NCBI GenBank assembly: GCA_903869075.1
Contig: CAIPXZ010000678.1
Coordinates: 1 to 32,511, forward strand
Length of the DNA: 32,511 nt
Reading direction: 5' to 3'
DNA from: an uncultured Myxococcales bacterium
GTDB taxonomy: Bacteria; Myxococcota_A; UBA9042
Part shown: positions 8,931-32,511 of the stretch, piece by piece
How the letters are laid out: every line of letters begins with the position of its first letter
Position numbering within the stretch: the first letter of the stretch is position 1
Position numbers and translations under genes: made by a program
Notes under the pieces: generated by a model
Seen by the model: only the letters and a program-made list of their open reading frames with translations
What the model was told of the DNA's origin: nothing
The model's database searches: none

Positions 8931-9638
8931 TCACCGTGACCGCCGCCTCAAGGCCTGGCCCGGAGCTGGAGCGACCGCCAGCGACTCCGCCGCCTGCCGC
9001 CCTTGCGCCCACGCCCACGCGTCCACGCGCACGCCGCGGCCGGTGCCCAGCCGCAGCCGATCCTGAATGAACGCTGCCAGCGCCGCGCGTTGCGCCTGCA
9101 CCGCCGGATCGAGCCGCACAAGCGCGTTGGCATCCAGTTCCGCCCGCACCGCACCCGCCACATCCGCCAGCCGCGCCGCCAGCGTCTCGACGCAGCCGAT
9201 GCGAAACGCCTCGTGCCACTGCCGATCCTGACCGGCGCCGTGCGTCGCCGACAGCCACTCCACGCGCGGCACAAGCCACGTCCACAGCGTCGCCACCGCC
9301 GCGCGGTCGCGTTCGCGCCCCACAAGCACCAGCGCGCGGTCCTTGCCGCGGTCGAGCGTATAGGCAAAACAGCCGTTGGCCTCCGCCAGTGCCGTCGCCA
9401 GCACGGTCTTCCAGGTCCGCAGCCGCTTGGACACTTCCAGCGGCGTGTCGCGCGCGTCGGTGATCGGCTCCGCGTCCGCCGCCACCGCTTCCGCCGCGTC
9501 CAGCCACCGCTCCAGCCGATGCCGCGCGATGAGCGTCTGCGCCAGCGCCGCCGCCGCCGCCGCTTCATGGACGTTGGGCGACGTGGCCAGCGCCAGCAGC
9601 TTGCGCACGCGATCGAGCAGGGTGGCGTCGTAGGTCAT
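8931..9638 (-). CDS. DUF2786 domain-containing protein
   Basis: This 235-aa cytoplasmic protein opens with LLDRVRKLLALATSPNVHEAAAAAALAQTL in two parts (about residues 7-36), a helical motif characteristic of DUF2786, in which a KLL-A-A-S-N-EAE-A-A pattern is followed by a central domain. The middle contains ANGCFAYTLDRGKD and LVGRERDRAAVATLWTWL, fitting the region usually found after DUF2786. The C-terminus is basic (ALRRRSR). The molecular function of the family is not established. The ATG at 9638 gives the motif at its usual N-terminal place; sequence upstream in frame is Arg/His-rich and non-protein-like. A 105-bp gap separates it from the nitroreductase gene on the same strand, and it is divergent from trpS. 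Confidence 0.8.
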   Translation of the reverse strand: MTYDATLLDRVRKLLALATSPNVHEAAAAAALAQTLIARHRLERWLDAAEAVAADAEPITDARDTPLEVSKRLRTWKTVLATALAEANGCFAYTLDRGKDRALVLVGRERDRAAVATLWTWLVPRVEWLSATHGAGQDRQWHEAFRIGCVETLAARLADVAGAVRAELDANALVRLDPAVQAQRAALAAFIQDRLRLGTGRGVRVDAWAWAQGRQAAESLAVAPAPGQALRRRSR

Positions 9639-9776
9639 GCGGTCCCGGCGGCGCTGCGGCCGCGGCGGCAGTGTACAGGGCCGCGGCGGATGCGCGAGCG
9701 GCAAGGCGCGTCGCTTGCAAATCCGCCAGAATGTGCTTCCCTTCCCCGCGGCGAACATCGCCCGCACTGAGCCGCC
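9639..9776. promoter_or_regulatory. Divergent upstream region of trpS and the DUF2786 gene
   Basis: This 138-bp gap must hold promoters for both genes. A TTGCAA at 9715-9720 could be a plus-strand -35 box, but I see no good -10 box at the right distance. No terminator-antiterminator or tryptophan-rich leader peptide is visible before trpS. trpS lacks a clear Shine-Dalgarno. Confidence 0.3.
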
Positions 9777-10814
9777 ATGACGCAACCGCCCCGTCTTCGC
9801 TCCCTTTCCGGCATCAAGCCCACCGGCCAGCCGCATTGGGGCAATTATTTCGGCATGATCCAGCCGGCGATCCAGCTGGCGGACGATCACGACGCGTTCT
9901 ACTTCGTCGCCGATCTGCACGCCCTGACGACCGTGCGCGACCGGGAGGCGCTGCAGCGCGACAGCCTCGGCATCACGGCGACGATGCTGGCGGCAGGCCT
10001 GGACCCGGCGCAGAGCACGCTGTGGCGGCAGTCGGACGTGCCGGAAGTGCTTGAACTGGCGTGGCTTTTGGGCTGCGTGACGAGCATGGGCCTGATGGAG
10101 CGCGCGCACGGCTACAAGGACGCCAAGGCCAAGGGCAAGGATCTCGGTTTTGGCGCGTTTGGCTACCCGGTGCTGATGGCGGCCGATATTTTGCTCTATG
10201 ATTCCGACGTGGTGCCCGTCGGCAAAGACCAAGTGCAGCACCTGGAAATGGCGCGCGACATGGCGACCTGGTTCAACGTCGCATTCATGGGCGCGCCGGC
10301 GGGCGGCACGGTCGCGGACGTCAAGTGGGACGGTCGCATGCTGAAGAAACCCGACGCGCTGGTGCAGGCCAAGACGGCGATCGTGCCCGGCGTGGACGGC
10401 CAGAAGATGTCGAAATCGTATGACAATTACATCGCGGTTTTTGCCAGCCAAAAAGAGCTGAAAAAAGGCGTGATGGCCATCAAGACCGACTCGAAAGGCT
10501 TGGAAGAGCCCAAGGATCCAGAGACTTGCAACGTGTTTCAGCTGTACAAGCTGTTCGCCACGCCGGCGCAGCAGGCGGAGCTGGCGGCGAAGTACCGCGC
10601 CGGAAATTTTGGCTACGGCCACGCCAAGCTGGAGCTGTTGGCGCTGGCGGAGGCGCATTTTGGCCCGCAGCGCGCGCGCTATGACGCGCTGATGGCGCGG
10701 CCGGATGACCTGCGGGACATCCTGAAGACCGGTGCGCAGAAGGCCCGCGCCGTGGCGCAGCCGGTGATCGAGCGCGTGCGCGATGCGACGGGCCTGCCGC
10801 CGCGGGCGTGGTGA
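9777..10814 (+). CDS. trpS: Tryptophanyl-tRNA synthetase
   Basis: This 345-aa class I aminoacyl-tRNA synthetase charges tRNA-Trp using ATP. The ATP-binding signatures are present: PTGQPHWGN (residues 15-23, the HIGH-box equivalent) and KMSKS at residues 210-214. The tryptophan-pocket region (FVADLHALT) and the GKDQVQHLEMARD helix are typical of bacterial TrpRS, and the length matches the family. The ATG at 9777 places the first motif at the expected distance from the N-terminus. It is the first gene of an unusually tight series: the next gene starts 3 bp after its stop, and three further genes follow with overlapping start and stop codons. Confidence 0.97.
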   Translation: MTQPPRLRSLSGIKPTGQPHWGNYFGMIQPAIQLADDHDAFYFVADLHALTTVRDREALQRDSLGITATMLAAGLDPAQSTLWRQSDVPEVLELAWLLGCVTSMGLMERAHGYKDAKAKGKDLGFGAFGYPVLMAADILLYDSDVVPVGKDQVQHLEMARDMATWFNVAFMGAPAGGTVADVKWDGRMLKKPDALVQAKTAIVPGVDGQKMSKSYDNYIAVFASQKELKKGVMAIKTDSKGLEEPKDPETCNVFQLYKLFATPAQQAELAAKYRAGNFGYGHAKLELLALAEAHFGPQRARYDALMARPDDLRDILKTGAQKARAVAQPVIERVRDATGLPPRAW

Positions 10815-10817
10815 GCG

Positions 10818-11678
10818 ATGGTGGAGCCGCGCGACGTTGAAATTCTGCCGCCCGACCCGGACTGGCGCCCGCCGCACGAGCAGGTGCGCGTGTACGAGGT
10901 CATCGACGTGCCCGAAGGCGACGGCCCGGCGCGGGTCAAGCCGCAGCGGACCGGCGATGCGCGCATCGTCGCGAAGTGGGCCAAGTGGGCACTGCGCCTG
11001 TACGTTTTGGCGGTCGGCTCGATGCTCGTCGTCTGGCTGTTTGAGCCATTTGGCCCGAACCTGCTCGGCCACGTGACCGGCTGGCTGGAGGCGCAGGGCA
11101 CGCTGGGCAAGGTGCTGGTGGTGGCGGGCGTGGCGATCGGCTGCCCGCTGTTCCTGCCCGTCGGGCCGCTGGCGGTGATTCCCGGCTACGTGTACGGCAG
11201 CGTGGAAGGCACGGCGCTGGCGATCGCCGGGTCGAGCTTGGGCGGGCTGATCAACTTTTACCTGGCGCGCTGGTATCTGGAGCCGCACGTCCACGCGTGG
11301 CTGGACAAGAACCCGACGCCGGCGACGCTGTACCGCACCATCGACGCGCGCGGCGTGCGCATCGGCGTGGGGCTGCGGCTGACGCCGATTATGCACTACG
11401 GTGTGCTGAGCTTTTTGTGCGGCCTCGCGTCCATGCGCTGGTGGCAGTTCGTGCCGGCGATGGCGGTGGGCGGGCTGCCGTGGACGTCGGTGTGGGCGAG
11501 CGTCGGCGAGATGCTGCACGAAGCGCTGAAACCGATTACGCTCGGGGCCTTGGACACCAATCCGTACGCGTGGCCGATGCGCTGGGGCGGCCTCGTGCTG
11601 CTGGTGGCGCTGGCGCTGTGGGTGGGGCGGCTGGCGCGGCGGGATCTGGCAAAAGCGACGGCGGAGGCGCAGCGATGA
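10818..11678 (+). CDS. DedA/TVP38-TMEM64 family membrane protein (VTT domain)
   Basis: This 286-aa inner-membrane protein has about 55 polar N-terminal residues, a first helix (LRLYVLAVGSMLVVWLF), then a VTT-type core. The core shows GCPLFLPVGPLAVIPGYVYG (about residues 110-129), GSSLGGLINFYLARWY and a later LRLTPIMHYGVLSFLCGLA segment, corresponding to the glycine-rich re-entrant loops and the arginine/proline motif of the DedA superfamily. A last helix (GGLVLLVALALWVGRLARR) ends in positive residues. Relatives are implicated in lipid carrier or phospholipid flipping and membrane homeostasis; the specific substrate here is unknown. It begins 3 bp after trpS and its TGA stop overlaps the ATG of the GH31 gene. 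Confidence 0.87.
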   Translation: MVEPRDVEILPPDPDWRPPHEQVRVYEVIDVPEGDGPARVKPQRTGDARIVAKWAKWALRLYVLAVGSMLVVWLFEPFGPNLLGHVTGWLEAQGTLGKVLVVAGVAIGCPLFLPVGPLAVIPGYVYGSVEGTALAIAGSSLGGLINFYLARWYLEPHVHAWLDKNPTPATLYRTIDARGVRIGVGLRLTPIMHYGVLSFLCGLASMRWWQFVPAMAVGGLPWTSVWASVGEMLHEALKPITLGALDTNPYAWPMRWGGLVLLVALALWVGRLARRDLAKATAEAQR

Positions 11679-14395
11679 CGCGATATCCACGATGGCTGAT
11701 GGTGTTTTGCGTGCTCGCGGCGTGCGGCAGCAAGACGACGGGCGGGGAACTGCCGGATTTCAGCGTTGCCGATCCGGATGCAACGGACCTCGCCGACCTG
11801 ACCGATGCGGTGGACGTGACGCCGACAGACGCGACAGCGACCGACGTCGCCACAGTGCCGGTGCCGACAGCGGGCGCGGTGACGCTGACCGCCGGCCAGG
11901 CGTCGCTGGTTGTGGATCGCGATGGGCGCAGGCTGACGCTTGGATGGGCAGGCGCGGCGCGCACGAAGCTGGATCTGAACAAGCTGCGCGTCGGCCGCGT
12001 CAAGACTTGGGATCCCGACTGGAATTACGCGCCGGATGACCTCGCCGGCAACGGTCCGGACGGCCTCAGCTGGCTGCATGTGACGACCGCGGAGTGGACG
12101 CCGCACGTGCTGGCGGGCGGGATTACGGGCGTGACGCTGCTGCTGCATCTGGCTGATGACAAAGGCGTTTCCGGCCCGGACTACCAGTTGGCGATCGAGC
12201 CACGCGCCGACGGCGACTTCCGCGCCACGCTGCAGCCCGCGGACGCCCAGCTGAACGACGATCTGACGCACGACAAGGTGGCGACGGACACGCCAGTGTA
12301 CGTCGACCTCCGCGCGCAAGTACCTGCGTCAGAACGGTTTTATGGCCTTGGCGAGTACTTCGACACGCCCCAGCACCGCGGCAAAGTGCGGCACATGCAG
12401 ATCGTCATCGATACGAGCATCGACGCCGGCTACAACGAGGCGCACGTGCCGATTCCGCTGCTGATCGGCACGCGCGGCTGGGGGCTTTTCGTCGAGGATC
12501 GCCACCCGGGCATCTGGGACGTCGCGGCGGCGCAAGCGGATGAAGTGCAAGCGCTTTTTGCCCACCATCAGACGACGTTTTGGCTGTTTGCTGCGGCGCA
12601 ACCGATTGAAATTACCGGCCATTACACATCCATTACCGGCGCCAACGTGCTGCCGGCGAAGTGGGCGTTTGGTTCGCTGATTTGGCGCAATGAAAACAAG
12701 GACACGGCGGAAGTCCTGACCGACATGCAGGCGATCCGCGACAACGATCTGGCGATTTCCGGCATGTGGCTGGACCGGCCGTTTGACGTCGCCGTGAACA
12801 ATTTTGGCTTTGATCCCAAGAAGTTCCCCGATCCCAAGGCGCTCGTCGACGGCGTCCACGCCAAGGGCATGCGCATGGGCGAGTGGTCGACGCCGTACCT
12901 GGACCCGGGTCCGGGCAATCCCAAGGCGGCACATCGCGATGAGGCGGTGCAAAAAGGCTATTTTGTCACGACGCCGCTGGGCAACGCCGAGACCAAGCTG
13001 TCGCAATGGGGCGCGCCGATCGACTTGACGAACCCGGACGCGCTGGCTTTTTGGAAGTCGCTCGTCAAACAAGCGACGGACGCTGGCATCGAGGGCTGGA
13101 AAATGGACTATGGCGAGGATATCCAAGCGGGAATTCTCACGAGTCGCACGCATTACGGTTTCTTTGATGGCAGCGACGAACGCACGATGCACCACGGTTT
13201 TCACGCCTTTTATCACCGGCCGTACGCCGAGAGCCTGCCGGCGACCGGCGGCTGGCTGCTGAGCCGCGCCGGCTCGTTTGGCGATCAGGTTTATTCCTCC
13301 ATCATTTGGCCCGGAGACTTGTGTGCCAACTGGGCGCACCACGGCGAATGCGACGCGGACGGCACGACGTGCCACACCGGCGGCTTGCCGGCGTCGGTCT
13401 CGGCGTCCATCAGCCTGCCAGCCAGCGGCTACCCGCTTTTTGGCCCAGATACGGGCGGTTACAAGCACGGGCGCGCCGGCAAGGAGCTCTTCCTGCGCTG
13501 GCTGCAGCACTCGGCGTTCTCGGGAATTCTGCAAATTGGCGGCGGCGATCAGCACAATCCGTGGGATTTTGCGGCGTATCCCAGCCCGTATGCCGAAGGT
13601 GGCGTCAGCCAGTTTGATCAGGAAGTGCTGGATACCGCGCGCTATTTCATTCGCCTGCACACGCGGCTGTTTCCGTACATCTACAGCTACGCCCAAAATG
13701 CCCGCGACCACAAGCCGGGCTTGACCCGCGCGCTGGGTCTGCAATTTCCGGAATTGAATGACTTTTACGCCATTGGCGATTTTGAAGCGACCGAGTACGC
13801 GTTTGGCGAGGACCTGCTCATTGCGCCGTTTACGCAGCCCGGCGGCAAGCGCAAGGTTCTGATTCCCAAAGGACAATGGCTGGATTGGTGGACGCACCAG
13901 CCGGTCGGCTTGCCGGACGCGGCGACGGTGATCGATGTGGCGCTGCCGCTCGGGCAGTCGCCGATGTACGTGCGCGCAGGGGCCCTGATTGCGCTGCTGC
14001 GGCCGACGATTGACACGCTGGCGCCCACGACGGACGCGACCGTCGACAGTTTTGCCGGCAAGCCCGGGCGGCTGTACGTGCTGGCGACGCCCGGCAAGCC
14101 CGCGGCGCGGACGCTGTACGATGGCACGCAGCTGTCCTCGACGGCGCTGACTGGCTTTGACCCGGCGGCGTTCTTCTCGGCGCAAAAAGGCAGTGATTTC
14201 AACGTGGATGTCGAATGGCAGTTCTGGCTGGACGCCGCCGCCGCCAAGCCCAAGCCGACCGTCCAAGGCGGCGCGAGCCTCAGCGAAGCCAGCGATGACG
14301 CTACCTGGCAGACCTGCAGCAGCTGCTGGCGCTGGGATGCGGCGACGCACACCGCGGACGTCCGCGTCGCCATGGGCACGGTGTTCAGCCTATGA
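11675..14395 (+). CDS. GH31 family alpha-glucosidase-like lipoprotein
   Basis: This 906-aa secreted glycoside hydrolase has a lipoprotein signal MTRYPRWLMVFCVLAAC (lipobox LAAC, Cys17), then an Asp/Thr-rich linker (about residues 28-59), an N-terminal beta domain, a TIM-barrel and C-terminal beta domains. GH31 landmarks are YGLGEYFDTPQHRG, SGMWLDRPFDV, the nucleophile segment GIEGWKMDYGED with Asp478, and IIWPGDLCANW with Asp548 as the probable acid/base. The 70-residue spacing fits the family. It should release alpha-linked glycosyl residues at the cell surface or in the periplasm; alpha-xylosidase or sulfoquinovosidase activity cannot be excluded. A CSSC pair sits 25 residues from the C-terminus. 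The ATG overlaps the previous stop, and its own TGA overlaps the next ATG, so translation is coupled. Confidence 0.93.
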   Translation: MTRYPRWLMVFCVLAACGSKTTGGELPDFSVADPDATDLADLTDAVDVTPTDATATDVATVPVPTAGAVTLTAGQASLVVDRDGRRLTLGWAGAARTKLDLNKLRVGRVKTWDPDWNYAPDDLAGNGPDGLSWLHVTTAEWTPHVLAGGITGVTLLLHLADDKGVSGPDYQLAIEPRADGDFRATLQPADAQLNDDLTHDKVATDTPVYVDLRAQVPASERFYGLGEYFDTPQHRGKVRHMQIVIDTSIDAGYNEAHVPIPLLIGTRGWGLFVEDRHPGIWDVAAAQADEVQALFAHHQTTFWLFAAAQPIEITGHYTSITGANVLPAKWAFGSLIWRNENKDTAEVLTDMQAIRDNDLAISGMWLDRPFDVAVNNFGFDPKKFPDPKALVDGVHAKGMRMGEWSTPYLDPGPGNPKAAHRDEAVQKGYFVTTPLGNAETKLSQWGAPIDLTNPDALAFWKSLVKQATDAGIEGWKMDYGEDIQAGILTSRTHYGFFDGSDERTMHHGFHAFYHRPYAESLPATGGWLLSRAGSFGDQVYSSIIWPGDLCANWAHHGECDADGTTCHTGGLPASVSASISLPASGYPLFGPDTGGYKHGRAGKELFLRWLQHSAFSGILQIGGGDQHNPWDFAAYPSPYAEGGVSQFDQEVLDTARYFIRLHTRLFPYIYSYAQNARDHKPGLTRALGLQFPELNDFYAIGDFEATEYAFGEDLLIAPFTQPGGKRKVLIPKGQWLDWWTHQPVGLPDAATVIDVALPLGQSPMYVRAGALIALLRPTIDTLAPTTDATVDSFAGKPGRLYVLATPGKPAARTLYDGTQLSSTALTGFDPAAFFSAQKGSDFNVDVEWQFWLDAAAAKPKPTVQGGASLSEASDDATWQTCSSCWRWDAATHTADVRVAMGTVFSL

Positions 14396-25590: not shown

Positions 25591-28500
25591 TCACGGGCTG
25601 CAGCAGAGGATGCCGGTGACTGGCGCCCAGCCCGCAGCGTTGGTCTTGGAGCAGCCGAGCAGCGTCGCCGTGCCGCCGTTCGTGTCAGCGTTCGGCGTGC
25701 AGGACGTCGGCGTGGCGGCGGCGATGGTGCCGCAGCTGCCGCCGACCGCCGCGACCGTCATGTCGTTGGTCTGGTCGGTGCAAGTGTTGCAGCCGCCGGC
25801 GCGGTTGGACGCGTTCATGACCCAGCAGCCGGCGGCCGCGCCTTGGGACGCGGTGATTGTCGCGAGCAGCGCCTTGTCCGCCGCGCTCGTCGAGCAGATG
25901 TGCCAGCCGGTCTGGCAGAGCGCCGCGGCGCTGGCGCCGTTGTTGACAGTGCCGGTGAAGTTGCCGCCGCATGCGGCGATCTTCGGCTGGCTGGCCGGCG
26001 GCGTGATGTTCTCGCGCGTGCCGTCCGCGCAGCCTTCCTGCTTGCACGTGGACGAGCAGCCGTCGCCGTTCACCAGGTTGCCGTCGTCACACGTCTCGCC
26101 GAGCGCCGCGGTCAGGATGCCGTCACCGCACTTGCCGGCGATGCAGCCGCCGTTGACGCAGATATTGGTGCCGCCACAGCCAGTGCCGTTGGTCACGCTG
26201 GTGTAGACGCAGCCGCCGGGCGCGACGCAGGAGTCGGTCGTGCACGGGTTGTTGTCGTTGCAGGTGACGGCCGCGCCGCTGCAGGTGCCGCCGGCGCAGA
26301 TGTCGGGGTTGGTGCACGCGTTGCTGTCGTTGCACGCCAGCGTATTGTTGGCGTGGGCGCAGCCGGTCGTCGGGTTGCAGGTGTCGGTGGTGCAGACCTG
26401 GGCGTCGTCGCAGTTGAGCGCGCTGCCGGCGGTGCAGGTGCCGGCTTGGCAGCTGTCGCCGACGGTGCAGACGCTGCCGTCTGCGTCGCAGCCAGTGCCG
26501 TTGACCACGGGCGTGAACACGCAGGCGCCGGTGCCGGTGTTGCAGCTGTCCGTCGTGCAGCTGTTGCCGTCGTTGCAGATCAGCGCCGGGCCAGGCGCGC
26601 AGGCACCGCTGGCGCAGGCGTCGCCCTGGGTGCAGGCGTTGCCGTCGCTGCAGGTCGCGTTGTTGTTGACGTGGACGCAGCCGTTGACGGCGTCGCAGCT
26701 GTCATTGGTGCACGGGTTGCCGTCGTCGCAGCTGAGCGTGCCGGCGGCGACGCAGGCGGTGCCCACGCAGCTGTCGTTCGGCGTGCAGACGTTGTTGTCG
26801 GCATTGCACGCCGCGCCGCTGTTTTGTGCCGCCGGGCTGCAGACGCCGGTCGCGGGCGCGCAGGTGTTCTTGGCGCACGTCGTGTCGCCGGTGGCGTCGC
26901 AGGTGACGATTGTTGCCGGATTGACGACGCACGTGTGGCTGCTCAGCTGGCAAATCAGCGTGCCGTCGCAGAGGTTGCCGTTCTCCAAGCCCGCGCAATC
27001 GGCGGTCTTTTGGCACTGGCAGGTGCTGGCGCCGCCGACGCAGACGCCGGCCGCGCAGGCGTCGCCCTGCGTGCAGCTGTTGCCGTCGTCGCACGGCGCG
27101 GTGTTGTTGGTGTGGCTGCAGCCGCTGGCGGGCAGGCAAGCGTCGGTCGTGCACGGGTTGGCGTCGTCGCAGGCGGTGGCGACGTTGATGGCGGTGCCGG
27201 CGCACAAGCCGCCGCCGCAGACGTCGTTCTGCGTGCAGGCGTTGCCGTCATTGCAGCCGAGGCTGTTGTTGGTGAAGACGCAGCCGGTGGCCGGGGCGCA
27301 CGAGTCGCTCGTGCACACGTTGCCGTCGGTGCAGAGGATGCCGATGCCGGCGCACAGGCCGGCGGCGCAGGTGTCGCCGCTTGTGCAGGCGTTGCCGTCC
27401 GAGCACGCCGCGGTGTTGAACGCGTGCAGGCAGCCGGAGCCGGCGTCGCAGGTGTCGTCCGTGCACGGGTTGCCGTCGCTGCAGCTGACGGCGACGTTGA
27501 TGGCCGTGCCGGAGCAGACGCCGCCGCCGCAGATGTCATTGGTTGTGCACAAGTTGTTGTCATTGCAGGCGATGGCGTTGTTGACGTGCGTGCAGCCGAT
27601 CGCGCTGTCGCAGGCGTCGTTGGTGCACGGGTTGCCGTCGTCGCAGGCGACCGGCGCGCCGGCGCACTTGCCGACGTTGCAGACGTCGCCGCTCGTGCAG
27701 GCATTGCCGTCGTCGCACGGGCCGCCGGCGTTGAAGTTCAGGCACGCGCCGGTGGTCATGTCGCACGAGTCGCCCGTGCAGGCGTTGTTGTCGTTGCAGT
27801 TCTTGGCGGTGCCGGCCAAGCAGGCGCTGGCGGCGCAGGTGTCGCCGATTGTGCACGGGTTGTTGTCGCTGCACGGCGCGGCGTTGGCGCTGTGGACGCA
27901 GCCGTTGACCGGGTCGCACATGTCGTCCGTGCACGGGTTGCCGTCGTCGCAGCCGATCGCCACGCCGGCCACGCAGGTGCCGTTGCTGCACTGGTCGCCA
28001 GAGGTGCACACCGAATTGTCGGCGTTGCAGGCGCCGCCGTTGTTGACGGGCGCCAGCGCGCACTGGCCAGTCGCCGCCGCGCAGGTGTTGACGGCGCAGG
28101 CGGTGTCGTTGGCGGCGGAGCACTTGACGATTGTCGCCGGGTCGATGACGCAGGTGTGCGATGCGTCGCAGATCAACGAGCCGTCGCACAGGCTGCCGTT
28201 CTGGAACGGCACGCAGTCCGCGTTGGCCTGACACTGGCAGGTGGAAGCGCCGCCGACGCAAGCGCCCGCGGCGCAGCTGTCGTTGCCGGTGCACGGGTTG
28301 CCGTCATCGCACGGCGCTGTGTTGTTCTGGTGGAAGCAGCCGTTTGTCACGTCGCAGCCGTCGCTCGTGCACGGGTTGTTGTCGTTGCAGGCGGTGGCGA
28401 CGTCCAACGCCGCGCCGGTGCACTTGCCGGAGCTGCACAAGTCATTGTTCGTGCAGGCATTGCCGTCGTTGCACGGCAGCAAGTTGGGCGTGAAGACGCA

Positions 28501-30441
28501 GCCGGCGGTGGCGTCGCAGCTGTCGCTGGTGCAGACGTTGCCGTCGTCGCAGGTGATGGCGAAACCGGCGCAGATGCCGGCGCCGCAGACGTCGCCGGAG
28601 CTGCAGGCGTTGCCGTCGTCGCAGGGCAGGGCGTTGTCGACGACGACGCAGTCGCCCGCCAAGCTGTTGCAGATCTCAGTCGTGCACGGGTTGTTGTCGT
28701 TGCAGATGACGGGCGCGCCGGCGCCGCAGCCGCCGCCGTTGCAGGTGTCGCCGGTCGTGCAGGCGTTGCCGTCGCTGCACGGCGCCGTGTTGGGCGTGTG
28801 CTGGCAGCCGAGCACCGCGTCGCAGACGTCGTCCGTGCACGGGTTGCTGTCGTCGCAGAGTACGTTCGGACCGGCGACGCACAAGGCGCCCTGGCAGGTG
28901 TCCGGGCTTGTGCAGACAGTGCCGTCTGCGTCGCAGAACTGGCCGGGATTTTGCGCCGTCAGGCTGCACATGCCGGTGGCCGGCGCGCAGGTGTTCTTGG
29001 CGCAGACGTTGTCGGCCGAGGCGTCACAGACGATGACGCTCGCCGGGTTGATGACGCACGCGCCGGCGGTGCAAGCCAGGGTGCCGTTGCACAGGTTGCC
29101 GTCCTCAAAGCTGGCGCAGTCGGCGGTCGTCGCGCACGCGCAAGTGCTGGCGCCGCCCACGCACACGCCCGCGGCGCATGCGTCGCCGGCGGTGCAGGGG
29201 TTGCCGTCGTCACACGCGCCGGTGTTGTTGCTGTGCGCGCAGCCAGCGACGAGGTCGCAGCTGTCGGTTGTGCACGGGTTGCCGTCGTCGCAGTTGGCGC
29301 CCACGGTCAGGCCGCCGCCGCACACGCCGTTGGCGTCGCAGGCTTCGTTGACTGTGCACGGGTTGCCGTCGTCGCACGGCAGCAGGGTGGACTTGTGAAC
29401 GCAGCCGGAGAAGCCGGTGCAGCTGTCCTCCGTGCACGCGTTGCCGTCGTCGCACGAGGTCGCGGCGCCGGAGAGGCAGACGGCGTCGCTGCAGACGTCA
29501 CCGACGGTGCAGGCGTTGCCGTCGTCGCACGCGGCGGTGTTGTTGGCGTGGACGCAGGCGCCGGTGGTGTCGCAGGTGTCGTCGGTGCACGGGTTCTTGT
29601 CGTTGCAGTCGAGCTGCGTGCCGGCGCAGGTGCCGGCCGTGCAGGCGTCGTTGCTGGTGCAGACAAGGCCGTCGTCGCAGGCGGTGCCGTCCAGCGGCGT
29701 GTGGCTGCAGCCGCCGGCCGTGCAGGTGTCGGCGGTGCACGGGTTGGTGTCGTCGCAGTTGATTGTCGTCGACACGATGCAGCCGGCGGTCTTGTCGCAG
29801 CTGCTCTGGATGCACGGGTTGCTGGCGTCGCAGACGACCGCGGCGCCGTTGGTGCAGAAGCCGCTGGCGCAGACTTCGCCGGTCGTGCAGGCGTTGCCGT
29901 CGTTGCAGGCGGAGCCGTCGGCCAACAGCGGGCTGCCGACCTGGCAGGTGCCGCTCGTGCACACGGGCACGCCGCACGCGGTGACGAGCGCGGCACAGTC
30001 GGCGTCGGTTGTACATTCGGTCGTCGTCGTGACGTCGGTCGCGTCGGTCACGGTGGCGTCGCCGGCATCGGCAACGCTTGTCACGTCGCCGACGTCGCCG
30101 ACGGTGTCGCTGCCGTCCGGGTACTTGGCGTCGTAGTAGAGGCCGTCGACGCCGATGCTGCCGTCGCTGACGTCGCTCTTCGGCACGTCCTGGCCGTCGC
30201 CGTCCTTGCCAATCTGCGTGTCGTCCGTCAGCTTCGTGTCACCGGCGTCGATCGCGTCGCCGAACGTCAAACCGCCGAGGTCGTTGGCAAAGTAGCCTTT
30301 GACATTTGTCGGATCCTGCACGGCTGCGTCATCGCCGCAGGCCTGCGCGCCGGCCAGCACGAGCAGCAGCGCCAGCGCAGTGCTGCGATTTTGGCCCAAA
30401 GTTCCCCGCCCGTTCACCCGATTCTGACCGCAAATGTGCAT
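25591..30441 (-). CDS. Giant Cys-rich tandem-repeat lipoprotein
   Basis: This about 1616-aa protein starts with a signal peptide (STALALLLVLAGAQAC, Cys35; Gln at -2 is unusual for a lipobox), then an Asp-rich linker (about 53-140). About 19 units of about 51 aa with eight cysteines follow, of the form CDDGNPCT-D-CD---GC-H-NNT-PCDDGNACT-GD-C-G-C-G. Three interspersed modules of about 100 aa begin GGASTC. Near the end is one DUF4215/Myxo-disulfide repeat (GETCDDGNLVNGDGCSSTC), then a Cys-containing C-terminal domain (TGWHICSTS, CWVMNASNRAGGC) that I cannot assign. The repeats have acidic loops between cysteines, so Ca2+ binding is plausible but unproven. It is probably a long, rigid, disulfide-stapled surface protein. 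ATG 30441 is chosen for its GGGGA site 5 nt upstream; ATG 30471 and later GTG or TTG codons are alternatives. Confidence 0.88.
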   Translation of the reverse strand: MHICGQNRVNGRGTLGQNRSTALALLLVLAGAQACGDDAAVQDPTNVKGYFANDLGGLTFGDAIDAGDTKLTDDTQIGKDGDGQDVPKSDVSDGSIGVDGLYYDAKYPDGSDTVGDVGDVTSVADAGDATVTDATDVTTTTECTTDADCAALVTACGVPVCTSGTCQVGSPLLADGSACNDGNACTTGEVCASGFCTNGAAVVCDASNPCIQSSCDKTAGCIVSTTINCDDTNPCTADTCTAGGCSHTPLDGTACDDGLVCTSNDACTAGTCAGTQLDCNDKNPCTDDTCDTTGACVHANNTAACDDGNACTVGDVCSDAVCLSGAATSCDDGNACTEDSCTGFSGCVHKSTLLPCDDGNPCTVNEACDANGVCGGGLTVGANCDDGNPCTTDSCDLVAGCAHSNNTGACDDGNPCTAGDACAAGVCVGGASTCACATTADCASFEDGNLCNGTLACTAGACVINPASVIVCDASADNVCAKNTCAPATGMCSLTAQNPGQFCDADGTVCTSPDTCQGALCVAGPNVLCDDSNPCTDDVCDAVLGCQHTPNTAPCSDGNACTTGDTCNGGGCGAGAPVICNDNNPCTTEICNSLAGDCVVVDNALPCDDGNACSSGDVCGAGICAGFAITCDDGNVCTSDSCDATAGCVFTPNLLPCNDGNACTNNDLCSSGKCTGAALDVATACNDNNPCTSDGCDVTNGCFHQNNTAPCDDGNPCTGNDSCAAGACVGGASTCQCQANADCVPFQNGSLCDGSLICDASHTCVIDPATIVKCSAANDTACAVNTCAAATGQCALAPVNNGGACNADNSVCTSGDQCSNGTCVAGVAIGCDDGNPCTDDMCDPVNGCVHSANAAPCSDNNPCTIGDTCAASACLAGTAKNCNDNNACTGDSCDMTTGACLNFNAGGPCDDGNACTSGDVCNVGKCAGAPVACDDGNPCTNDACDSAIGCTHVNNAIACNDNNLCTTNDICGGGVCSGTAINVAVSCSDGNPCTDDTCDAGSGCLHAFNTAACSDGNACTSGDTCAAGLCAGIGILCTDGNVCTSDSCAPATGCVFTNNSLGCNDGNACTQNDVCGGGLCAGTAINVATACDDANPCTTDACLPASGCSHTNNTAPCDDGNSCTQGDACAAGVCVGGASTCQCQKTADCAGLENGNLCDGTLICQLSSHTCVVNPATIVTCDATGDTTCAKNTCAPATGVCSPAAQNSGAACNADNNVCTPNDSCVGTACVAAGTLSCDDGNPCTNDSCDAVNGCVHVNNNATCSDGNACTQGDACASGACAPGPALICNDGNSCTTDSCNTGTGACVFTPVVNGTGCDADGSVCTVGDSCQAGTCTAGSALNCDDAQVCTTDTCNPTTGCAHANNTLACNDSNACTNPDICAGGTCSGAAVTCNDNNPCTTDSCVAPGGCVYTSVTNGTGCGGTNICVNGGCIAGKCGDGILTAALGETCDDGNLVNGDGCSSTCKQEGCADGTRENITPPASQPKIAACGGNFTGTVNNGASAAALCQTGWHICSTSAADKALLATITASQGAAAGCWVMNASNRAGGCNTCTDQTNDMTVAAVGGSCGTIAAATPTSCTPNADTNGGTATLLGCSKTNAAGWAPVTGILCCSP
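26732..27036 (-). repeat. Interspersed module copy 3 (GGASTC module, about 305 bp)
   Basis: Codes for a distinct module of about 100 aa: GGASTCQCQKTADC, then NLCDGTLIC, a VVNPATIVTCDATGD segment, CAKNTCAPATGVC and CVAAGTLS. It interrupts the 51-aa array with six units before it and four after. Boundaries are approximate. Confidence 0.75.
27954..28255 (-). repeat. Interspersed module copy 2 (GGASTC module, about 302 bp)
   Basis: Same module as at 26732-27036 and 28862-29160: GGASTCQCQANADC, SLCDGSLIC, VIDPATIVKCSAAND, CAVNTCAAATGQC and ending CVAGVAIG. Four units separate it from copy 1 and six from copy 3. Confidence 0.75.
28862..29160 (-). repeat. Interspersed module copy 1 (GGASTC module, about 299 bp)
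   Basis: First copy in translation order: GGASTCACATTADC, NLCNGTLAC, VINPASVIVCDASAD, CAKNTCAPATGMC and ending CVAGPNVL. It follows about five of the 51-aa units. Confidence 0.75.
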
Positions 30442-30533: not shown

Positions 30534-32511
30534 TCAGCGCACGCAGCGGACCGACGCGTTGCTGCTGTTGTACAACGCCAAGGTCACCCCGTCGGCGAAG
30601 CGCACGCTCCAGAATTTGCTGGGGGAATTGGCGAATACATCGCTCGTGAAAAAGGAGTCGCTCGTGCCGGTGAAAACGGCCGGCAACGTCGGCGCGGCGA
30701 GGCGGCGGTCGACAAGTGATTCGAGCTCCAGGATGCCGGGGAGGCGCCAACCGCCGCCGTCCAGCGCCAAGCCGGCGCACAAGGCCGTCGCTCCGGTCAA
30801 GTAGTTGATGTTGGACTGCCCGGCCAGCTGCCAGTTGCGCCCGGTGACGTTGTCCAGAACCCAGCCCTTGCTTGTGTCCGTGCCCCAGCGCGCGCCGGGG
30901 ACGTTGGGGGTGGTGAACGGCGAGCGCACGCAGCGGGCGCGGTACGCCGCGCTGGGCAGGTCGACGCTCGTTTGGCCTTCCTTGAAGTCGACGAGCCAGT
31001 AGTTGGCAAAGTCGATGTTCTGCACGGCCGTCCAATAGCCGCTGGCGGCGGTGCCGCTGAGGAATGGCGTGCCGATGGCAGGATTGAACGCGGTCTGGTC
31101 GCGCAGCGTCAGCAGCTCGGCAACGGTCGGCAGCCGCCAGTCCGTCAGGCCGTTCAGGTTGAGATTCTGGCAGTACAAGGTGGCATTCGTGTACGTCTTG
31201 GCGGCGCCGGAGTCGGCCTTTTGCCAGGTCAGGTAGGTGTTCTTGTCGGTGACCGTGCCGTCGCCGCTGTCGACGAGATACGTGTTGGGCGAGGCCTGGC
31301 GGATGCCCCACGCCGGATAGTCTGGCGCGCAGAGCTTGCTGCCATCGGCGAGGGTGACGAGCGGGTGCGTCGTCGGGCAGCTCTGGTTCTTGGTGATGGT
31401 CAGCACGTACGTTGGGAACGGGCCGCACGATCCGAGGAAACAGGCGAGGTTCGTGCCGCAGCTCGTGCCATTGGGCGAAACCGTGTGTTTGCAGCCGCCG
31501 ACCGGGTCGCAGGTGTCGACTGAGCACGGGTTGCCGTCGTCGCAGCTGATCGGGTTGCCGGTGCAGGCACCGCCGACGCAGAAGTCGCCGGTGGTGCAGA
31601 CGCTGCTGTCATTGCAGGCGGCGTTGACGTTGCCGTGGGCGCAACCCGTGATGTTGTCGCAGGAATCGCTGGTGCAGACGTTGCCGTCGTCGCAGTTCAG
31701 CGGCGTGCCGATGCAGGTGCCGGCGGCGCAGGTGTCGGCGGACGTGCAGGCGCTGCCGTCGCTGCACGGGATGCCGTCGGCGTTCGTCGTGTAGCAGCCG
31801 GTGGCTTTGACGCAGGCGTCGGTTGTGCAGGCGTTGCCGTCGCTGCAGTTGACCGTGTTGCCGGCGCAGACGCCGCCGATGCAGGTGTCGCTGGCCGTGC
31901 ACTTGTTGCCGTCGTCGCAGACCGCGGAGATGAAGCTGTAGACGCAGCCGGTCGTTGGGTCGCAGGCGTCGCTCGTGCACGGGTTCTTGTCGTCGCAGTT
32001 CAGCTGCGCGCCAACGCAGACCTTGTGGCTGCAGGTGTCCGCCGTCGTGCAGGCGTTGCCGTCGTTGCAAGGCGCGATGTTTTCGGTCCACGTGCAGGTG
32101 TTGCCGTTGGTGCAATTGTCGGTCGTGCAGGCGTTGCCGTCGCTGCATGCGGTCACGCTGGGCACGTAGACGCAGCCGCTCGTCGGGTCGCAGCTGTCGT
32201 CGGTGCACAGGTTCTGGTCGTCGCAGCTGATGTTGGTGCCGAGGCACGCGCCGCTGCTGCAGGTGTCGCCGGTCGTACACAAGTTGCCGTCATTGCAGCC
32301 GTTGGAGTTGAACGGGTGGACGCAGCCCTTGCCAACGACGCAGCTGTCGTCCGTGCACGGGATGCCGTCGTCGCAGTTCAGCGCGCTGCCCTTGCAGACG
32401 CCGGTTTTGCAGACGTCCCCGGTCGTGCAAGCGTTGCCGTCGTTGCAGTTGCTTGTGTTGTCGACGTTCAGGCAGCCCTGCGTCGCATCGCAGACGTCGG
32501 TTGTGCAGGCG
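30534..32511 (-). CDS. Cys-rich repeat protein with two C-terminal DUF1566 modules (5' partial)
   Basis: The frame is open through base 32510, so the N-terminus lies beyond the window. About 659 residues are visible. The first part holds about seven units of the same 51-aa, eight-Cys repeat as the neighbouring giant gene (for example CDDKNPCTSDACDPTTGC). A linker follows, then two DUF1566-type modules. The first (about 31275-30920) has GTVTDKNTYLTWQK, WRLPTVAELLTLRD, YWTAV and RCVR. The second (about 30900-30537) has WVLDNVTGRNWQLAG, WRLPGILELESLVD, FWSVRFADG and the terminal RCVR. DUF1566 is a lectin-like extracellular fold of unknown ligand in bacteria. The gene lies upstream of, and on the same strand as, the giant gene, with under 100 bp between them. 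They are tandem paralogues in the repeat part but differ at the C-terminus. Confidence 0.88.
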   Translation of the reverse strand, partial: ACTTDVCDATQGCLNVDNTSNCNDGNACTTGDVCKTGVCKGSALNCDDGIPCTDDSCVVGKGCVHPFNSNGCNDGNLCTTGDTCSSGACLGTNISCDDQNLCTDDSCDPTSGCVYVPSVTACSDGNACTTDNCTNGNTCTWTENIAPCNDGNACTTADTCSHKVCVGAQLNCDDKNPCTSDACDPTTGCVYSFISAVCDDGNKCTASDTCIGGVCAGNTVNCSDGNACTTDACVKATGCYTTNADGIPCSDGSACTSADTCAAGTCIGTPLNCDDGNVCTSDSCDNITGCAHGNVNAACNDSSVCTTGDFCVGGACTGNPISCDDGNPCSVDTCDPVGGCKHTVSPNGTSCGTNLACFLGSCGPFPTYVLTITKNQSCPTTHPLVTLADGSKLCAPDYPAWGIRQASPNTYLVDSGDGTVTDKNTYLTWQKADSGAAKTYTNATLYCQNLNLNGLTDWRLPTVAELLTLRDQTAFNPAIGTPFLSGTAASGYWTAVQNIDFANYWLVDFKEGQTSVDLPSAAYRARCVRSPFTTPNVPGARWGTDTSKGWVLDNVTGRNWQLAGQSNINYLTGATALCAGLALDGGGWRLPGILELESLVDRRLAAPTLPAVFTGTSDSFFTSDVFANSPSKFWSVRFADGVTLALYNSSNASVRCVR
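31490..32511 (-). repeat. Tandem repeat array in the partial Cys-rich gene
   Basis: About seven copies of the 51-aa unit (about 150 bp each) are visible before the window end. No GGASTC-type module is seen in this part. The plus strand shows the same recurrent CACGGGTTGCCGTCGTCGCA-like motifs as in the downstream gene. Confidence 0.8.

Follow-up and report, generated by a model that had tools for sequence, protein, structure and literature searches.

The window analysed here, a stretch of 32,511 nucleotides, comes from a lake bacterium that is a relative of the myxobacteria and carries on its minus strand a gene for a cysteine-rich, 1,616-aa predicted lipoprotein with Dicty_CTDC arrays (25591..30441), as defined by its open reading frame and translation. 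The initial annotation had placed this gene correctly at 25591-30441; the gene itself lies on the minus strand, with an ATG start codon at 30441, a coding part running from 30441 to 25594 and a stop codon at 25591-25593. Its GC3 is 0.87. A longer open frame reaching 31527 would overlap the upstream gene and is not required. The PF00526 (Dicty_CTDC) profile matches the protein over 18 stretches with 260.2 bits against a cut-off of 27 (E=4.5e-79), and the same repeat is known from the Dictyostelium matrix proteins EcmA and EcmB (PMC4931340, PMC4406040). The protein opens with a hydrophobic leader with the lipobox-like end LAGAQA|C35 (30337..30441), which fits a predicted lipoprotein signal; as a sequence pattern, a lipobox-like site after a hydrophobic leader recurs in 12 of 12 homologs examined. 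An acidic linker with 23% D+E (30016..30336) and an N-terminal array of repeats (29158..30015) precede the first of three modules.

The surrounding genes (GH57, GH31, a hybrid histidine kinase and others) are unrelated to this gene, and an inference of function from neighbours was rejected for this reason. The upstream neighbour (window 30537-32510, minus strand) encodes a CTDC array protein that ends in two Lcl_C (PF07603) stretches. Within the fetched flanks, two of five species, represented by the window and by L009/L127, have the Lcl_C gene upstream, and no such gene was flagged in L010-L012; no conserved operon was therefore found in these flanks. Elsewhere in the window, a 942-aa frame (8934-11759, minus strand) combines C-terminal DUF2786 and DUF7168 domains with a long uncharacterised N-terminal part.

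On the level of whole genomes, this slime-mould matrix repeat is massively expanded in a family of uncultured Myxococcota. CTDC candidate repeat sites number ~1,150-2,400 per genome in the window's family versus ~2-284 for listed genomes that fall outside the class, counts which show scale and not gene numbers because they are first-look, unscored candidates. The window's genome (G000) has ~1,860 such sites, which among the matches listed fall on ~78 of 806 contigs. D. discoideum, by comparison, has 14 Dicty_CTDC proteins (PMC4931340). The gene thus belongs to a very large CTDC repertoire, within which its conserved architecture sets it apart. Similar arrays were also seen in MAGs labelled Planctomycetota, Magasanikbacteria, Klebsiella pneumoniae and Proteobacteria (L017, L031, L042 and L013/L014). 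These MAGs are probably mis-binned or mislabelled, given that L014 matches G021, a member of the window's family.

Repeat hierarchy and module spacing

The arrays are composed of half-units of 24-28 aa with four Cys each. Two kinds can be distinguished, A (C-x5-C-x4-C-x5/6-C) and B (C-x5-C-x5-C-x4-C), which alternate strictly throughout the inter-module arrays, so that one A and one B form a double unit of ~51 aa with eight Cys. Beyond the Cys, conservation of the half-unit chiefly concerns D at +2, N at +4 and D at +9 or +10. Interspersed with the arrays are three 14-Cys modules, 100-102 aa long, located at aa 429-528 (module 1; 28858..29157), 730-830 (module 2; 27952..28254) and 1136-1237 (module 3; 26731..27036). 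Each module consists of a unique core of ~40-46 aa, which begins with CxC, contains six Cys and is strongly conserved in its non-Cys side chains (EDxNxCNGTLxC...VNPxT), followed by one divergent A/B double unit. This composition is indicated by hhalign, which related the last ~50 aa of the module to the A/B double unit at 95% (E=1e-8) and the core alone at 0.1%. A comparison of the core with known families gave no match. The nested repeat proposed in the initial annotation, with its half-units, eight-Cys double units and modules, is real, and of its separate ~100-aa module the three copies and the unique core stand; a wholly separate domain was rejected because the C-terminal half of the module is a divergent double unit.

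Module starts lie 301 aa (903 bp) and 406 aa (1,218 bp) apart. The first interval contains four double units (28255..28857) with half-unit lengths of 26, 25, 27, 24, 26, 28, 26 and 19 aa, an order that is fixed inside the intervals, and the second contains six (27037..27951) with lengths of 26, 25, 27, 24, 26, 28, 26, 24, 26, 28, 26 and 19 aa. The longer interval has one added block of four half-units (26, 28, 26 and 24 aa), an ancient duplication that TRF detects at 27033-27711 as a tandem repeat with a period of 312 bp. The co-occurrence of Cys amounts to 40 at lag 301 and to 43 at lag 406, against maxima of 38 and 40 in 2,000 shuffles of the inter-Cys gaps, and the residue-identity lags are strongest at 302 and 406. 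Exactly 8 and then 12 half-units separate successive modules, which agrees with the earlier count of four and six units and with spacing quantised in whole double units. The suggested ruler-type architecture likewise holds as a description of sequence geometry.

Module 3 is followed by a distal array (26131..26730) with the layout ABABABABAA, in which the first AB is the module's own; this layout is constant across all full-length homologs. Next comes a short segment matched by profiles of DUF4215 and of the myxobacterial disulfide repeat TIGR02232 (26032..26130), the latter as a single copy close to the C-terminus with 40.8 bits against a cut-off of 20.8, the former with 22.5 bits, below its cut-off. 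The chain ends in a conserved C-terminal domain of 146 aa (25594..26031) that is 81-94% identical among orthologs.

Constant intervals and evolution by cassettes

Full-length orthologs are present in four same-genus MAGs (uncultured Myxococcales) and share 72-82% identity. All four keep module intervals of 301 and 406 aa, with one exception of 407, and the distance from module 1 to DUF4215 is 1004, 1004, 1004, 1005 and 1004 aa in the five species, while the acidic linker varies from 93 to 141 aa. The sole array change is found in L012, whose N-terminal array ahead of module 1 is shorter by ~155 aa (three double units); this lone change in unit number involves whole double units, yet it lies outside the inter-module intervals. 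Among the half-units, 141 of 158 best match their positional ortholog, on the basis of which concerted evolution of the units was rejected. Contrary to the initial annotation, in which arrays between fixed modules were thought to gain or lose whole units, the number of double units is constant (four, and six in the last interval) in five species and in several further genera. What varies among these relatives is the number of whole module-plus-array cassettes.

Longer genes with the same ends are present in the window's own genome and in relatives. A 6-module paralog of 2,577-2,633 aa in four species maintains a distance from module 1 to DUF4215 of 1926 aa in all four. In the window's genome (L094, contig C540, 1-10500) this paralog is split into two frames, which may reflect either a sequencing error or a genuine break, and it is intact in four congeneric species. 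Elsewhere, 7 modules are found in G007, 9 in G013 and 11 in G021, the last in a 4,098-aa frame. All 53 internal intervals of the regular genes contain four double units, with a length of exactly 305 aa in 45 and of 301-304 aa in the others, and all 16 final intervals contain six (402-409 aa); an alignment of the 53 internal cassettes spans 305 columns. As the intervals are constant while the number of modules varies, the evolving unit is the whole ~305-aa cassette, and the protein seems to lengthen solely by whole sections of fixed length. In one irregular genus (G009; L095), the intervals are 197, 169, 201 and 455 aa and the fixed-interval rule is therefore not absolute. A separate CTDC family (L020, L032, L051) carries short BABB blocks at near-constant gaps of ~364-372 aa and is possibly another fixed-pitch architecture.

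Within the genus, the nearest neighbour of a numbered cassette is the same-numbered cassette of another species, and the cassettes inside one gene share a mean identity of 57-64%. In a tree of the modules, the first modules of long genes cluster across genera (SH-aLRT 96), the second modules do so partly (89), as do many penultimate ones (89), and middle modules cluster largely by lineage; many forks of this tree are unresolved, since the alignment has only 110 columns. In G021, cassette 3 is mutually closest to cassette 5 and cassette 4 to cassette 6 (76-77%), revealing a duplication of two cassettes. These sequence relationships are most simply read as mid-gene duplication of whole cassettes, one or two at a time, with conservation of the ends.

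A candidate surface stalk and its alternatives

Of 52 genomes in the class, 15 carry the C-terminal domain, with one to three copies each and nearly all in the window's family; a single occurrence lies in a distant family (G120). Searches for it returned no Pfam match and no convincing PDB match, and an AlphaFold2 prediction from six alignment rows gave a pLDDT of 39 and no usable fold. In G017, the domain caps a long Gly/Ser-rich stretch with a short CTDC array, and in G034 it caps a long DxDxDG-rich repeat. A 1,548-aa frame on the plus strand (L121:2396 onward) shows such a DxDxDG-rich repeat capped by the same domain; judged by eye, this repeat reads like thrombospondin type-3 (TSP3-like) repeats. 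A constant domain on differing stalks suggests that the stalks may be spacers and that the end would do the work, with the C-terminal domain as the probable working end.

An AlphaFold2 model of one cassette (module 1, four double units and module 2; 21 alignment rows) reached a pLDDT of 82 and a pTM of 0.37, i.e. high local and low global confidence. Short beta-hairpins dominate the model, and the module also has short helices. Foldseek placed the Cys-rich heavy chain of the Entamoeba Gal/GalNAc lectin as best PDB match (E=1.3e-5, TM-score ~0.1), a sequence search of the PDB with the repeat gave no match to any solved structure and a viral structure library none at E<=0.001. The pTM and the lectin TM-scores leave the predicted overall shape of the chain at low confidence. 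The Cys-rich region of the lectin is built of Cys4 pseudo-domains of 20-35 residues, in which the first and last Cys pair internally and the second and third bond to neighbours, and it forms an arc instead of a straight rod (PMC12948311). With an equal number of Cys in a similar length, the pseudo-domain makes an appealing template for the half-unit; given the arc of the lectin, straightness of the rod should not be taken for granted. A rigid rod and the joint role suggested earlier for the module are conjectural.

Taken together, the protein is read, with a probability of roughly 60%, as a lipid-anchored, disulfide-stapled surface stalk that holds its conserved C-terminal domain off the membrane. 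The lipobox, acidic linker, beta-hairpin repeats and C-terminal domain give it a stalk-like appearance, in keeping with the long extracellular chain envisaged earlier. Here, the N-terminal lipobox and the flexible acidic linker would anchor the stalk, and each half-unit would fold as a small Cys4 beta-hairpin stacked on its neighbours, with the A/B pair as repeating element. A distinct 14-Cys module every four double units, or six before the last, would set a fixed pitch of ~305 aa, and the stalk would evolve by mid-gene duplication of whole cassettes with the first and last ones staying in place. The extended shape, the disulfides from neighbour to neighbour and the display at the surface are inferred.

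A functional ruler, in which set distances between modules, length changes by whole cassettes and identically oriented sites would matter in cell-cell or cell-surface contact, is rather unlikely. Somewhat better placed, if still tentative, is the alternative of a structural register devoid of any distance function: indels other than whole double units would break the disulfide stacking and the interval would be inherited from one ancestral cassette. The cassettes are all homologous and descend from one another, so that a four-unit interval may have been inherited once and inheritance together with disulfide register could also explain the constancy; additionally, other CTDC proteins in these genomes have module-like segments at different spacings. 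On the other hand, the loss in L012 demonstrates that changes by whole double units do happen in the same gene, which counts against pure inertia, and none of the 53 internal and 16 final intervals of the regular genes has changed its number of double units.

The modules might also be periodic ligand-binding sites of a multivalent adhesin, with fixed site spacing, and not joints. Their core is modelled as confidently as the rest of the cassette and its conservation extends well beyond the Cys, yet it matches no known family and nothing points to a ligand, and this proposal is considered doubtful. A matrix or sheath like that of EcmA and EcmB, with chains released or cross-linked via Cys-rich modules as periodic cross-link sites, is less probable still. 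Such a role would agree with the shared repeat family and with the extracellular layers built by Cys-rich C4 double-unit proteins, e.g. the eggshell protein CREMP (PMC3068167); the lipobox-like site of all homologs examined points instead to membrane anchoring, and stalks of unrelated types bear one and the same conserved C-terminal domain. An assembly artefact was rejected as next to impossible: the genome is fragmented (806 contigs, 89% completeness) and its 6-module paralog is frame-broken, but four independently assembled MAGs repeat the architecture to within one residue and the units are sufficiently divergent to assemble.

Repeat proteins usually lengthen or shorten unit by unit. In this protein, the quantum of length lies at a higher level and the inside of the cassette is frozen while the linker of the same protein drifts. 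The fixed cassettes therefore offer a clean natural case for asking whether stalk spacing is under selection. The massive expansion of the repeat in this family also provides an accessible bacterial system for a repeat that has no sequence match to solved structures in the PDB search.

Comparison with known systems

Dictyostelium discoideum has 14 Dicty_CTDC proteins, of which 11 are tabulated with CTDC only and 3 with PA14 (PMC4931340). EcmA, EcmB and other PF00526 proteins have in common with the window protein a ~24-aa Cys4 repeat by profile, long tandem arrays and, as predicted here, secretion. In contrast to EcmA and EcmB, the window protein is a predicted bacterial lipoprotein with strict A/B alternation and modules at fixed pitch; it also has DUF4215 and a C-terminal domain of unmatched family and lacks PA14, which was absent from its Pfam scan. 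The Gal/GalNAc lectin is alike in its Cys4 elements of similar length and as the best structural match, and differs in that there is no sequence match, the global TM-score is ~0.1 and no fixed-pitch module is described.

The avian eggshell-membrane protein CREMP has a 59-residue repeat made of two related Cys4 modules, a and b (PMC3068167), so that paired Cys4 modules in long disulfide-rich arrays are common to both proteins. The Cys spacing of this vertebrate protein is C-x4-C-x5-C-x8-C and the available part of the source describes no interspersed module; the two are compared by description. From the same phylum as the window comes the myxobacterial TraA, a cell-surface recognition protein with a long Cys-rich repeat region, which combines PA14, Cys-rich repeats and MYXO-CTERM and whose TIGR04201 repeat has been noted to resemble PF00526 repeats (PMC3325183). 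An NCBIfam scan of the window protein at E<=0.1 detected neither TIGR04201 repeats nor MYXO-CTERM; the protein ends in ...GILCCSP and its predicted anchor is the N-terminal lipobox, as opposed to the MYXO-CTERM of TraA. Apart from the remark on TraA, no open-access papers were found that deal with bacterial PF00526 repeats or with DUF4215. The half-unit belongs to a known kind, of which the fixed-pitch cassette architecture is a new form.
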